From the NCBI GenBank assembly GCA_948144175.1, contig CANXME010001990.1, forward strand, positions 2,666,001 to 2,730,000: 64,000 nucleotides of DNA. The letters run 5' to 3'. Origin of the DNA: Closterium sp. NIES-65 (lineage: Eukaryota > Streptophyta > Zygnematophyceae > Desmidiales > Closteriaceae). Shown piece by piece: positions 47,634 to 57,540 of the stretch (positions are counted from its first letter, which is position 1; each line of letters starts with the position of its first letter). A program made the position numbers and the translations under genes. The notes under the pieces were generated by a model, which was given only the letters and a program-made list of their open reading frames with translations, did no database searches and was not told the DNA's origin.

Positions 47634-47819
47634 CTCTCTCTCTCTCTCTCTCTCTCTCTCTCTCTCTCTCTCTCTCTCTCTCTCTCTCTCTCTCTCTCTC
47701 TCTCTCTCTCTCTCTGTGTCTCTCTTTCTTTCTCTCTCTCTCCCTCTCTCTCTCTCTCTCTCTCTCTCTCTCTCTCTCTCTCTCTCTCTCTCTCTCTCTC
47801 TCTCTCTCTCTCTCTCTCT
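47634..47819 (-). repeat. (GA)n tract at the 3' end of non-LTR element B
   Basis: It is a CT run of about 186 bases on the plus strand, interrupted near 47714-47744. It touches the 3' end of the element, which on the minus strand reads AAGGACCATT then (AG)n. Confidence 0.95.
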
Positions 47820-50172
47820 AATGGTCCTTGTATTGATTTAGCCGCAAAGTACAAGCATGCAGGCTTATAGAGGCCTAGGAAACAAACAACCAAAGCACCG
47901 GATCCTACCCACAACCTCCTCTAGAGCTCCAGGAGGGGCTCGACCACCGCAAAACAATCCCCCAGGTTCAGCTCCTGCCCAATTCCGCCTACCGGCGGGT
48001 TCTCTACTGCTGCCGCCTCCCCGAGCTTGAGTAAGAGGCCCACAGACTGTGCCCTCTGAAGGGCCACCGACCATCTCTGTCTGAACTGGTGCAGAAACTT
48101 CGCGTCATGAAAGGATTTTGAGTCGGCGTTGAAGTAGCGCCGAGCCGCCGTGTCTGCTAAGAGCTTCAGAAAAACAGGTACCTCGGCGCAAGGGTAGCCG
48201 TAGGTTTCCACAGCCAGGGGGAAGAAGCTAACCGTCTCTGGGCGGTTAGCGTAGTGCTGTATCTTTTTGTCGGCTTGCTCCCTTGCCGCCCACCCCCTGC
48301 CTTTCTGTGCTTCAGGGTCCCTTGTGCTGATGGGGTCCGTGATGGTCACATCACAGACATAGACTACCCCGCTGCTACGGTCTGTCATGGTGAAGTCAGC
48401 GGTCTGCTCTTCAATGGGGCAGTGGGCGGCTGATTCGCTGTGAACGATAAACCCCGCGTCCTGCGCCATGCTGACGCATGCGTCACGCAGTTCGTTGTGG
48501 GTATTGATGCGGTGCTTACCCGTGCCGTAGCGAAGGAGGTGATTTGGGAGGCGGGGGTCGGTGATAGGTGTGTGGTCAGAGCAGTCGCATTTCTTTGGCG
48601 TTAAGAAAGGGAGCCCGAGCCGAAAGCGAACCGAGTTGGCGAAATGTACTGGGCCTATTCGTCGGTTTGGGGCAATCGGAATCGCGGTTAGCCAGTCGCC
48701 GGTGCCGTACCCCGTCAGTGAGAACAAGCGCTGCGTGTGGCCTGAGAGTGGGTTCGGTTTCATGCGCCTCGTGGCCTGCACCTGCACGGCGTATCTGCTG
48801 CCGTGCACCTTCAAACCGAGTACGTGTTGTAGCCGAATGTCCGACCGCTTCAGTCGCTCCTATTCTAAAATTTCACGCGCGTCCCTTGGCAATGCGGCTT
48901 TGCATTCGGTAAGCCATGTGTGCAGTGGTGTGGTGACGTCCCGTGGTAAGAGCATGTGATTCCTAGCTCAGATCAGGGCAGCAAATGGTTCTAGCGCGAG
49001 GGTGGAGAGAAAAAGCGCCGCCTGGGTGAAACTCGCCGTGTACCCGTATACACCTTCGACTAGTGGGTCTGTGAGGCCGATGCCTCCCGGTGATGGTGGC
49101 AGTGACGCCTGTGCCCATACTCGGGCCTGCTCGGTTTCGCACATGGGGACGCGGATATCGCATGATACTAGGAGTGCGATGAGTAGGTCCCGTCCCCACT
49201 GGCTCCAAATATCGCGAGGGAGTAGGTGGAGAGGTGTCGTACGGGTGAGATAAGCCACCCGCCTGGAGATGCAACGGGTGAGTAGCAGTGAAGCTACCTG
49301 AGGGTCGGCTCGTTCAAGGAGGTGTAATGGCTTCACCATTCCTTCTAGCTGGCTTGACAGGAATTTGGCTGCTCCTAAATCCGGCCCTAGATAGCTTCCA
49401 AGAAGCCGTACGCCTTCCCTCGAATACGGCACTCCGTGTGGAAGCTGCGCTGGCTCGACCGTTGACGCACTCCAGGCTGCACACTTATTCGGGTTATGTG
49501 CCAGGCCGATGTGGGCCAACCTGTCGGTAAAGAACGTGAAGGCTGCTACAGTTCGTTGTGTCTCCCCCAGAAAGGTGATGTCATCGGCGTACGCCAGGCA
49601 AAGCACGTCCGGAAATGACTCGGCCGTTCTGCGGAGTATGGGGTGTATCCCTGCTGCAAATAGTAACGGGCCGAGTGGGTCGCCATGGCGAATGCCGCGT
49701 TCGCTCTTCAGTGGTTCGTTGCTGAAATTGGCATCGAGATTTAGCAACGACGGGTTACCGTAGGTCAGGCGAACTATCGGCAGCAGTGGCGATAGGCCGG
49801 GCTCTTGTAATGCTGCTGCGATGGCTTGGCGTGAGATACTGTTGAAGGCGTTCGATATGTCCGCTTGCAGTACCAGGCTGTCGGGACGGGCATAAAAAAA
49901 CGCCCTGGCTGCGTGGATTACCGCTTCTGCTCCTCCTGGCACTGCCACTCCGTATTGAAGGGGTAAAAAATGTTCGCGGGCAGCTTCCCCTATGGCTGCA
50001 AGGGCTGCTTTGGCTGCCAGCCTGGTCAGACACTCTCCTATCGCGATTGGTCGCGCGCCACCTCCAGGTTTGGCCAAGGCAATGAGACGTGATGCTGTTA
50101 ACAGGTTCGCCACTGAGCCTGGTAAATTTCCCCCCAGAATCGTGTTTACCAGGGCGTGGAGATGGGTGCAGA
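47820..50172 (-). mobile_element. Non-LTR retrotransposon B, 5'-truncated, RLE type
   Basis: It lies between two (GA)n tracts. It begins inside the RT domain directly after the tract at 50173-50266 and ends at the tract at 47634-47819. The orientation matches its two relatives. Confidence 0.9.
47921..50172 (-). pseudogene. Non-LTR retrotransposon RT and restriction-like endonuclease, truncated
   Basis: One frame has stops at 48968 (TGA) and about 48863 (TAG). RT motifs: RLIALAKPGGGARPIAIGE, FLPLQYGVAVPGGAE, QADISNAFNSI, GIRHGDPLGPLLFA and YADDITFLGE. The C-terminal part has CDCSDHTPITDPRLPNHLLR, NTHNELRDACVSMAQ and DFTMTDRSSGVVYVCDVTITDP, which fits a zinc-knuckle plus PD-(D/E)XK-like endonuclease, as in R2/NeSL/Utopia-type elements. 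The Cys expected after HLLR is Tyr here. The N-terminus is absent. Confidence 0.88.
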
Positions 50173-50266
50173 TCTCTCTCTCTCTCTCTCTCTCTCTCTC
50201 TCTCTCTCTCTCTCTCTCTCTCTCTCTCTCTCTCTCTCTCTCTCTCTCTCTCTCTCTCTCTCTCTC
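50173..50266 (-). repeat. (GA)n tract between non-LTR elements A and B
   Basis: A 94-bp pure CT run on the plus strand. On the minus strand it follows the 3' end of element A (GCAAGACTGCTT) and precedes the truncated start of element B. Confidence 0.97.
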
Positions 50267-55685: not shown

Positions 55686-55733
55686 GCGCGGCCGAAGGCC
55701 GCGCTGTCGAGCGTCGGCCGCCGAAGGCGGCCG
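55686..55733 (-). other. Twin GC hairpins in the 5' UTR of non-LTR element A
   Basis: Two perfect 8-bp-arm inverted repeats with 3-base loops: GCGCGGCC-GAA-GGCCGCGC (55686-55704) and CGGCCGCC-GAA-GGCGGCCG (55715-55733). They lie about 105 bases upstream of the ATG. Confidence 0.9.
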
Positions 55734-56319
55734 GCGCGAGCCGCTGGGTTGGGGGGGATCCACACTCACCAGAGAATAATGAGTGGAGTGGAGGAACCAG
55801 GGGGGGATATATAGGCGGCCATACTGCTTATAGGCTCTTTGCAATGGCTACACTAAGGATACAAGGCTTAAGGAGCACTGAGGCTACGCTAAACTAAGTC
55901 TATAGTAGGCTAGGGAGCAGGGAGAGACTAAGGACTGGCCCTGGTGCCTCTCTCTCTCTCTCTCTCTCTCTCTCTCTCTCTCTCTCTCTCTCTCTCTCTC
56001 TCTCTCTCTCTCTCTCTCTATCTCTCTCGCGCGAGCCGCTGGGTTGGGGGGGATCCACACTCACCAGAGAATAATGAGTGGAGTGGAGGAACCAGGGGGG
56101 GATATATAGGCGGCGATACTGCTTATAGGCTCTTTGCAATGGCTACACTAAGGATACAAGGCTTAAGGAGCACTGAGGCTACGCTAAACTAAGTCTATAG
56201 TAGGCTAGGGAGCAGGGAGAGACTAAGGACTGGCCCTGGTGCCTCTCTCTCTCTCTCTCTCTCTCTCTCTCTCTCTCTCTCTCTCTCTCTCTCTCTCTCT
56301 CTCTCTCTCTCTCTCTCTC
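55734..56319 (-). repeat. Two tandem 5' UTR monomers, each with a (GA)n tract
   Basis: Two 214-bp units (55734-55947 and 56029-56242) start GCGCGAGCCGCTGGG and differ at one visible base. Each is followed on the plus strand by a CT run (55948-56028 and 56243-56319). They could be promoter monomers, as in mammalian L1, or a duplication through the two CT runs. Confidence 0.9.
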
Positions 56320-57540
56320 GAATGGTCCTTGCATTACTTTGAGGGGTGGTACAATGGAAGATGCAATCACACAAGCACAACAAACACCCAAACCAGCATC
56401 CTAACTACCTCAAGTCCCCTACCTACTCAGCCCCCCCCCCACCCCCCCCCTTGTCCGATTCTATTGGTCGAACGGGGCCTCGATCAATTGGTGCAGCTGT
56501 CCCTCACCAAGAGGGATGATGGGTCCTCTAAAGCCGAGCTAGTCCGCCGCCAAGGCCTCATTGGTCTTGGTGCGGAGGGCGTTGGCCTGCGCCCGCTGGA
56601 GGCACACGCTCCAGCACTGGCGGTACTCCGTCAGCAGCTTCGCTGCTTCATAGGAGGTAGGAGCTGCGTTAAAACGCAGCGTTGCCACCAGCTCCGCGCA
56701 TTGCCGCAGGTAAGCCATCACCCCTGACGAGGGATAGCCGTACGTTTCCACTGCAAGCGCGTGGAACCCCACCCACGCGTTCCGCCGAGCGTACTTTTCC
56801 TCCTTTTTTGCTGCTGCCGCCCTAGCCGCCCATCCAGAAGCTCGGTTGCAGTTCTCGTCCTGGTATGACACCGGGTCCGTCACGGTCATGTCGCACATCC
56901 AAACCTCTCCAGTCAGGGGATGACAGATGGTGACATCCGCCTTTAGGTTTTCAACTTGAGAGTAGACATACGTCTCGTTGTGAACCGTAAACCCCGCCTC
57001 AGCCCCAATGTTCGCTATCTGATCCCGCAGAGCGTGATGGGTTGCGGTCCTCCCTTTTCCCTTCTCGCAGCGCATGAGGTGGTTGGGGAGGCGGTCGTTG
57101 GGGAAGGTGGTGCGGTAGCGGCAGTCACAGCGTCTAGGCACTGGGAGGGGGAGGCCTAGGCGGAAGGCAGCTGCAGTTGAGAGCTGGGATGGGCCCATCC
57201 GGAGCGAGGGGATGAGCGGGATCGCCAGCAGCCAGTCCCCCGCGCCTGGGCCTAGCACCGACTGCATCCGTTGCGCGTGGCCAGAACGGGGGTTGGGGCG
57301 CATCCGTCTTGCCTCGCCCATGACTCTCAGGAAGCGGCGGGAGTGAACCGCCAGCGCAAGGCTCTGCTGCAGCTTCAGTCCCTTGGGGTCCGTCTTCCTG
57401 GCCTGGAGCACCTTGAGAGCCTCAGGGGGGAGAGCTGCCTCAGCCGCAACGAGGCGTGAAGGCAGTGCGTGCGGAGAGCCGTGGGTAGGGTCCAGTAGGG
57501 GGAGGAGCGCGGCCACAGCAGGGTGCACCAATTTCATTTA
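56320..57540 (-). mobile_element. Non-LTR retrotransposon C, 5'-truncated
   Basis: Its 3' end reads GCAAGGACCATTC then (GA)n, close to that of element B. It starts inside the region between RT and endonuclease. The 3' UTR holds a C-rich tract near 56429-56448. Confidence 0.88.
56539..57537 (-). pseudogene. C-terminal endonuclease part of a non-LTR retrotransposon
   Basis: An open frame of 332 codons starts at ATG 57537, but it is only the C-terminal fifth of the polyprotein. It contains CDCRYRTTFPNDRLPNHLMR followed by C, TATHHALRDQIANIGAEAGF, ADVTICHPLTGEVWMCDMTV and HALAVETYGYPSSGVMAYL. The zinc-knuckle and PD-(D/E)XK-like motifs line up with elements A and B. There is no RT, so it is not autonomous, although no stop interrupts it. 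Confidence 0.88.

Follow-up and report, generated by a model that had tools for sequence, protein, structure and literature searches.

We analysed a 64,000-nucleotide stretch of the Closterium sp. NIES-65 genome (hereafter the window; positions 2666001-2730000 of a 3.46-Mb contig, in an assembly of 874 Mb and 2400 contigs) and identified in it an array of three diverged retrotransposons, here named C, A and B, which lie head to tail on the minus strand with (GA)n links between them (Table 1). Read along that strand, the order is C, (GA)38, a 214-bp unit, a GA tract, A, (GA)47, B, a compound tract of (GA)38, a 28-bp interruption and (GA)46, and finally the host flank. A preliminary description of the same DNA had given this layout, C-(GA)n-A-(GA)n-B-(GA)n in one orientation, and the coordinates bear it out, except that the leftmost tract begins at 47624 rather than 47634. 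That description missed the tandem 5' unit of A, the truncation of B, and the fact that C is a 3' part whose 5' side lacks GA.

The 3' ends of the three elements, on the minus strand, read CAATGCAAGACTGCTT followed by GA in A, CAATACAAGGACCATT followed by AG in B and GTAATGCAAGGACCATTC followed by GA in C. As had been noticed earlier, B and C have GGACCATT in common before the GA run; all three share AAT(G/A)CAAG ahead of the position of GGACCATT, and the sequence ATRCAAGGACCATT would serve to recognise further copies of the 3' end. Six GA/CT runs of at least six units occur in the 64 kb, every one inside the tracts of the array; among other dinucleotides, two GT runs alone reach this length. 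Chance was rejected as an explanation, as no 16-base run appeared in 100 shuffles and GA at the 3' junctions is far above background. An Rfam search of 47600-57600 returned five matches up to E=1, all under the gathering score and none of them an HDV-like ribozyme.

Table 1. Features of the retrotransposon array and its target flank (window positions; ORF, open reading frame; UTR, untranslated region; RLE, restriction-like endonuclease; RT, reverse transcriptase)
Feature	Position	Strand	Remarks
Element C, 3' part only (RLE domain and 3' UTR)	56320..57527	-	ORF 56539-57537
(GA)38 separating C and A	56243..56318	-	
First copy of the 214-bp 5' unit of A, with TATA-like box	56029..56242	-	1/214 difference from the second copy
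GA tract separating the two 5' units	55948..56028	-	36 perfect units
Element A, apparently full length	50267..55947	-	second 5' unit 55734-55947; ORF 50551-55581 (1676 aa); 3' UTR
RT domain of A	52060..52737	-	residues 949-1174, Pfam RVT_1
RLE region of A	50962..51246	-	motif read from translation
(GA)47 separating A and B	50173..50266	-	
Element B, 5'-truncated in the RT domain	47820..50172	-	41% to A (tblastn); frame broken between 48968 and 48814
GA tract 3' of B: (GA)38, 28-bp interruption, (GA)46	47624..47819	-	
Host flank of the target	47056..47623	-	common to L060/L088 (96.9%) and L059/L089 (94.0%), both without A and B

Coding capacity and relatives of the elements

Element A encodes a single intact ORF. 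RVT_1 (E=2.4e-22) is the sole Pfam domain detected in its product, which has no APE domain; RVT_1 was found in B as well. The best solved relative of A, by phmmer, is the R2 retrotransposon chain 9nl2_A (E=3.2e-10). Towards the C terminus the translation reads C-x1-C-x14-H-x3-C-x9-H-N ... E ... R-A-D-x14-D, and across an alignment of 44 rows five columns of this endonuclease motif (C, C, H, H and E) hardly vary. By these features A is a non-long-terminal-repeat retrotransposon, and its C-terminal CCHC and PD-(D/E)XK-like motif is predicted to form a restriction-like endonuclease. B is cut at a point corresponding to about residue 915 of A, and C matches A residues about 1344-1643 (39%, tblastn). 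The window copy of C breaks off at 57527; two paralogues (L088 and L089) match it at 97% from that position and continue 5' as RT coding sequence. As B and C have only 39-41% protein identity to A (tblastn), the three represent separate families, not copies of one.

Every one of the 20 best protein relatives of A carries the name Closterium, which agrees with the earlier assignment of the DNA to a plant-lineage genome; we take the host to be a zygnematophyte. Two proteins of Closterium sp. NIES-65 (P0114 and P0115) are 96-97% identical to A across the matched parts. An RT tree with 36 rows places A, B and a paralogue of C, as three sublineages, in one clade of 18 rows (100/100), the remaining 15 rows of which are all named Closterium by source. 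The clade is separated from two R2 chains at 100/100, and a SLACS-named Diplonema protein and a fungal protein lie outside it on the non-R2 side. CRE as a clade name for A, B and C is a lead from this tree, which includes a single row named SLACS and none for R4, NeSL or HERO. In the available excerpts of PMC12857005, the CRE motif is spaced C-x1-3-C-x7-8-H-x3-4-C-x9-10-RHD/N; A has x14 where CRE has x7-8, and THN where CRE has RHN. Since A departs from the CRE spacing and its target is not the telomere repeat of the MoTeR elements (below), we call the clade CRE-like and file it as neither CRE nor MoTeR.

Three further proteins (P0023, P0025 and P0026) form a second, separate Closterium RT lineage of the same type. 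Scans of viral contigs for relatives gave 0 matches, and no GA-coded ER/RE or SL/LS runs were found in the relatives' proteins (95 proteins and 120 proteins examined).

Junctions, chains and locus states in the host genome

The host assembly was searched for the 3'-terminal 200 bp of C, A and B, GA tract excluded. The A-type query gave 18 matches (18/18 candidates scored, all 18 read), the B-type query 41 (40 of 422 first-look candidates scored, 30 read) and the C-type query 40 (40 of 188 candidates scored, 30 read). The 78 copies read, which are the best-scoring ones, reduce to 57 events when loci near-identical on both sides are merged (L049 and L050 by hand). Taking as a GA junction at least 4 nt of alternating G and A no more than 8 nt from the 3' terminus, we found GA at the 3' junction of 56 of the 57 events (A 15/15, B 24/24, C 17/18), a pattern present at 5.4% of element-body positions and at 4.0% of those in the remaining window. 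With the three window copies excluded the count is 53/54. On the 3' side the insertions fall into one simple repeat, as expected of microsatellite-specific elements: in 37 events a tract of 10 or more GA units lies within 30 nt of the 3' terminus. Long tracts are not exclusive, as the other 20 have no tract of that length at the junction and range down to AGAGGA or GAGAGG. A 3'-terminal stem, YUUGUA/UGCAAG, is a weak candidate: with the register set by hand, 14 tails show pairing at 5-7 of 7 positions, but free folding does not always settle on it, and a MAFFT alignment of 23 tails misregisters it.

The shortest target is seen in a copy of B inside a Copia gene (L038/L057). Its 3' junction reads CCATT followed by AGAGGATACGAC, and an uninserted Copia in the window reads CC followed by AGAGGACATGAC at the insertion point. 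The AGAG at this junction belongs to the target, and no GA tail was added. No GA run of five or more units exists anywhere in the 6.4-kb stretch with the insertion, and on the 5' side about 1.37 kb of Copia is missing. Other junctions that fit a short motif are AGAGGGATTGG of L051/L052, in the coding sequence of another clade member, and GAGAGG of L022, L061 and L081. We predict that 4-5 bases suffice as a target, L038/L057 being the one case with an uninserted homologue. Given these short AGAG/GAGAG junctions, (GA)n is the favoured landing site and not the sole one. The earlier idea that the elements target (GA)n and leave (GA)n behind holds where the target was already (GA)n; in L038/L057 the GA is the target's own, and no active making of tracts was seen.

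Downstream of 40 of the 57 events, within 1.5 kb, lies a further clade member on the same strand, as opposed to 2/57 on the opposite strand. This is the excess of head-to-tail pairs that the preliminary description had predicted, and 37/57 remain when a looser TATA-head rule is dropped. Some downstream elements are 5'-truncated; others start directly behind the tract and are complete at the 5' end, which reads GGCACC.. or GGCCCTAGGAGC.., with a TATA-like box next, then CATTATTC and in many cases a GCGCGGCCTTCGGCCGCGC hairpin. Three-element chains are found outside the window, for example at L024, L025, L028, L034, L040 and L044. On other contigs, same-strand (GA)n tracts form clusters (C21:1914755-1918083, C73:514306-549655, C95:468505-491758 and C105:1838777-1844591), in many cases with spacings from a few hundred bp up to a few kb; these clusters suggest chains longer than that of the window.

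The 5' unit of A occurs together with its GA tract in tandem twice, with a 295-bp period and 99.3% identity. A script detected a post-tract unit repeated behind a further GA stretch at 11 of 77 loci (L013, L025, L032, L036, L039, L049, L050, L053, L056, L058, which is the window, and L073). Its hits at L027 and L072 were rejected as mere interruptions of a GA tract. The TATA-like boxes suggest that the tandem 5' units of A may act as a promoter.

The preliminary description had proposed a search for empty (GA)n sites, and we found locus states that lack A and B. Just past the window on the same contig (C1692), L060/L088 reads C, (GA)35 and then the window flank 47695-47056 at 96.9%; at 3.237 Mb of that contig, L059/L089 reads C, (GA)43 and the flank 47551-47056 at 94.0%. 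Neither contains A or B. Both are paralogues of the window locus, with copies of C that are 97% identical. The 35 and 43 units of these sites compare with 38, 36, 47 and 38+46 between and beside the elements in the window. In addition, L053 and L055 are 99.66% identical across 1769 bp, including a truncated B and its GA tract; past this shared part, at the tract end, L053 passes into the 5' end of a new element and L055 into another flank. By sequence, we read them as a second filled/unfilled pair; the tract of the unfilled L055 has 37-38 units. The flank of both C-bearing paralogues passes from 47056 to 43488 and thus lacks a 3.6-kb DNA transposon that occupies 43489-47055 in the window, with imperfect inverted ends and a DDE_Tnp_4/Plant_tran transposase ORF (43780-45192).

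These locus states bear on whether the chain arose in a single step. If, in the course of a single insertion, reverse transcriptase finished one RNA at its 5' end and then jumped to the 3' end of a second RNA, ready-made chains would result; head-to-tail order with GA links would be expected if the RNAs have GA ends, and the tandem 5' units could be template switches. However, A, B and C are three diverged lineages, the ORF of A is intact while B is frame-broken and 5'-truncated, and the paralogous sites hold C alone. Because the lineages and their states of decay differ, we favour sequential insertion; a template-jump chain was rejected as the main cause, since the loci differ as well, and we give this explanation hardly any probability.

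Exchange between tracts could also build or trim chains, by break-induced replication or unequal crossing between microsatellites, with GA insertion serving only as the seed. The tandem GA-linked 5' units do resemble a local duplication, and paralogues of the locus exist. Yet the truncated B follows none of the other 17 A-type copies read, and the 3' stretches of window A and window B are at least 1.6% and at least about 2.6%, respectively, off other copies, no donor chain being seen in a set in which most B-type copies are unread. Moreover, the AGAG insertion in Copia requires no exchange between tracts. As no A-(GA)n-B donor occurs among the A copies read, we favour sequential insertion over the copying of chains and regard recombination as an unlikely main cause.

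Proposed mode of insertion

Starting from the observed 3' junctions, the orientation bias, the locus states without A and B and the target-derived AGAG of the Copia case, we consider it very probable that A, B and C belong to an autonomous clade, equipped with RT and a restriction-like endonuclease, which inserts by target priming at AGAG/GAGAG, prefers (GA)n and forms head-to-tail chains through the strand asymmetry of its target. Target-primed reverse transcription would begin at the short purine motif, and as the motif is repeated in (GA)n, microsatellites would be the main landing sites. The 3' end of the RNA may anneal to the nicked CT strand, and the sense strand of the element would run into GA. 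The strand asymmetry of GA would force any copy that lands behind an older one, in its tract, to lie head to tail with it; the tract at the 3' end of the older copy would thereby serve as the landing site for the next. Tracts would regrow on both sides of the new copy by target duplication and slippage, or possibly from RNA-borne GA, and insertions would create more target.

Several observations weigh against this proposal. The junction counts come from no random sample of loci. L053/L055 and window C/L059-L060 each have one old 3' junction that was counted apart as the downstream sequence differs, and merging them gives 54/55. The sole event without GA (L076/L077) has lost its last bases and sits in another member's coding sequence. 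The sites lacking A and B may instead have lost them secondarily, as DNA between direct (GA)n repeats can be deleted; the polarity of these sites is therefore argued from parsimony, and the identities among the three paralogues (97.4, 97.2 and 96.9%) favour neither direction.

The chief finding against a strict form of the proposal concerns the 5' side. In the window, GA adjoins the 5' sides of A and B but not that of C. Elsewhere we scored 17 events for which the stretch read takes in a 5' break of the matched element (L012/14, L013, L015, L020/21, L022, L023, L024, L025, L028, L038 in L057, L039, L040, L041, L043, L044/45, L046 and L053/55). L035, which has an internal deletion, and L049/L050, which contain Ns, were left out; L020-L025 match at 73-81% identity, which makes their breaks less certain. 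GA lies directly at or no more than 17 bp upstream of the 5' break in six (L025, L039, L040, L041, L044/45 and L053/55), and 11 have none. The preliminary description expected copies both to end and to start in (GA)n, and named a majority of copies lacking it at one or both junctions as evidence to the contrary. Its expectation stands for the 3' junctions and falls for most 5' breaks. Target loss, as in the Copia case, may explain some of the GA-less breaks.

The asymmetry between the two sides is what a tail would produce, and elements that bear or synthesise their own (GA)n, with no preference for a GA target, would show GA after nearly all 3' ends read and at few 5' breaks. Against such a tail stand the 20 events without a tract of at least 10 units, the AGAG of L038, which is also present in the uninserted Copia homologue, and the GA on the 5' sides of A and B. 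L038/L057 rules out GA as an always-present element tail, and we retain this explanation as a minor and very improbable one.

A final point against a strict form of the proposal comes from the tracts themselves. Starts of the form YN(AG)11 number 1457 + 1392 in the assembly, and those of a reversed-pattern control 936 + 874. We sampled 16 tracts on 16 contigs (one per contig from the first 100 listed; 15 tracts plus L001); seven touch an element end or 5' unit, and at nine no element was found within roughly 100 bp before and 100-170 bp after. One of these nine, L095, is GA-rich throughout the stretch read. As the listing is visibly clustered (for example on C21, C73 and C95), the sample probably understates the element-linked share.

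We speculate further, and with considerable doubt, that the system amplifies itself: the clade would recognise only AGAG, GA would be kept beside each new copy and regrow to about 35-50 units, chains would create a large share of the long (GA)n tracts, and GA-linked tandem TATA units would let transcription from the promoter of one copy cross the GA tract into the following copy, so that chains could be co-expressed. If chains mark chromosome regions such as centromeres, the elements would shape chromosome structure.

The window contains further repeats. Segments 1-6122 and 24971-31209 are related (79.5% identity), and the ORF at 1209-4928 in the first is of Copia type (integrase, gag-pre-integrase); another Copia lies at about 7650-12160. 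A (GGGAT)n array at 33742-34195 comprises about 91 units with 86% matches, and a 61-bp repeat forms two arrays (35324-35483 and 35863-36214) at 97-98%. Segment 40839-42215 is duplicated at 62579-64000 (96%), adjoining an HSP70 gene, and a DDE_1 transposase fragment occupies 61365-62345.

Comparison with known systems

Dong is an element of the R4 clade. The SLACS, CZAR and CRE elements of trypanosomatids have spliced-leader exons as their target, and SLACS has 5' tandem repeats. They are of the same broad RT and endonuclease type as the Closterium elements, and the SLACS-named Diplonema protein is among the relatives of A.

The preliminary description gave microsatellite-specific elements as APE-type and known in animals. 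Elements with a restriction-like endonuclease are already known from animal microsatellites as well: Dong is inserted in microsatellites according to PMC3636483, and Togen in (TG)n according to PMC4640811. They resemble the Closterium clade in combining this endonuclease type with microsatellite sites, and differ in their animal hosts and in the (TG)n target of Togen; the excerpts of these papers describe no head-to-tail self-array. A self-propagating restriction-like-endonuclease system in (GA)n of a plant-lineage genome was earlier called notable. With such elements already known from microsatellites, that judgement applies to the host being an alga, to GA as the target and to the formation of chains by three diverged lineages.

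The elements studied here would constitute a retrotransposon clade that targets microsatellites and forms chains in a streptophyte alga, next to land plants; our literature searches listed no report of one. As a natural experiment, they would show how genome architecture follows from a very short target motif combined with strand asymmetry, and they would allow the idea that microsatellites are manufactured by retrotransposons to be tested. Their endonuclease would have a predicted minimal target of 4-5 nt. The target shared by three lineages would allow target evolution to be traced.

The likeness to telomeric long interspersed nuclear element arrays, proposed at the outset, holds in that same-strand copies are separated by the target repeat (40/57); it does not extend to the target, which is AGAG/(GA)n, or to the position of the window, at 2.67-2.73 Mb of a 3.46-Mb contig. 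In the excerpts of PMC12857005, FoTeR of Fusarium oxysporum has target repeat at both junctions, asymmetrically, together with upstream tandem repeats and a CRE-like endonuclease motif, all features with counterparts in the Closterium array. It differs in its telomeric target and in its zinc knuckle, C-x2-C-x6-H as against C-x1-C-x14-H in A.

The closest parallel is offered by MoTeR1 and MoTeR2 of Magnaporthe oryzae, described in part of PMC3636483 as relatives of the CRE clade. According to the excerpts of PMC7367193, their tandem copies are always head to tail and separated by (TTAGGG)n, and they share with the Closterium clade the restriction-like endonuclease type, a short tandem repeat as target and repeat-separated head-to-tail copies. 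The MoTeR target is the telomere repeat at chromosome ends, whereas the Closterium clade occupies dispersed (GA)n and short AGAG sites, in three diverged lineages of an alga. By analogy, the Closterium clade would work like MoTeR, with (GA)n replacing the telomere repeat.

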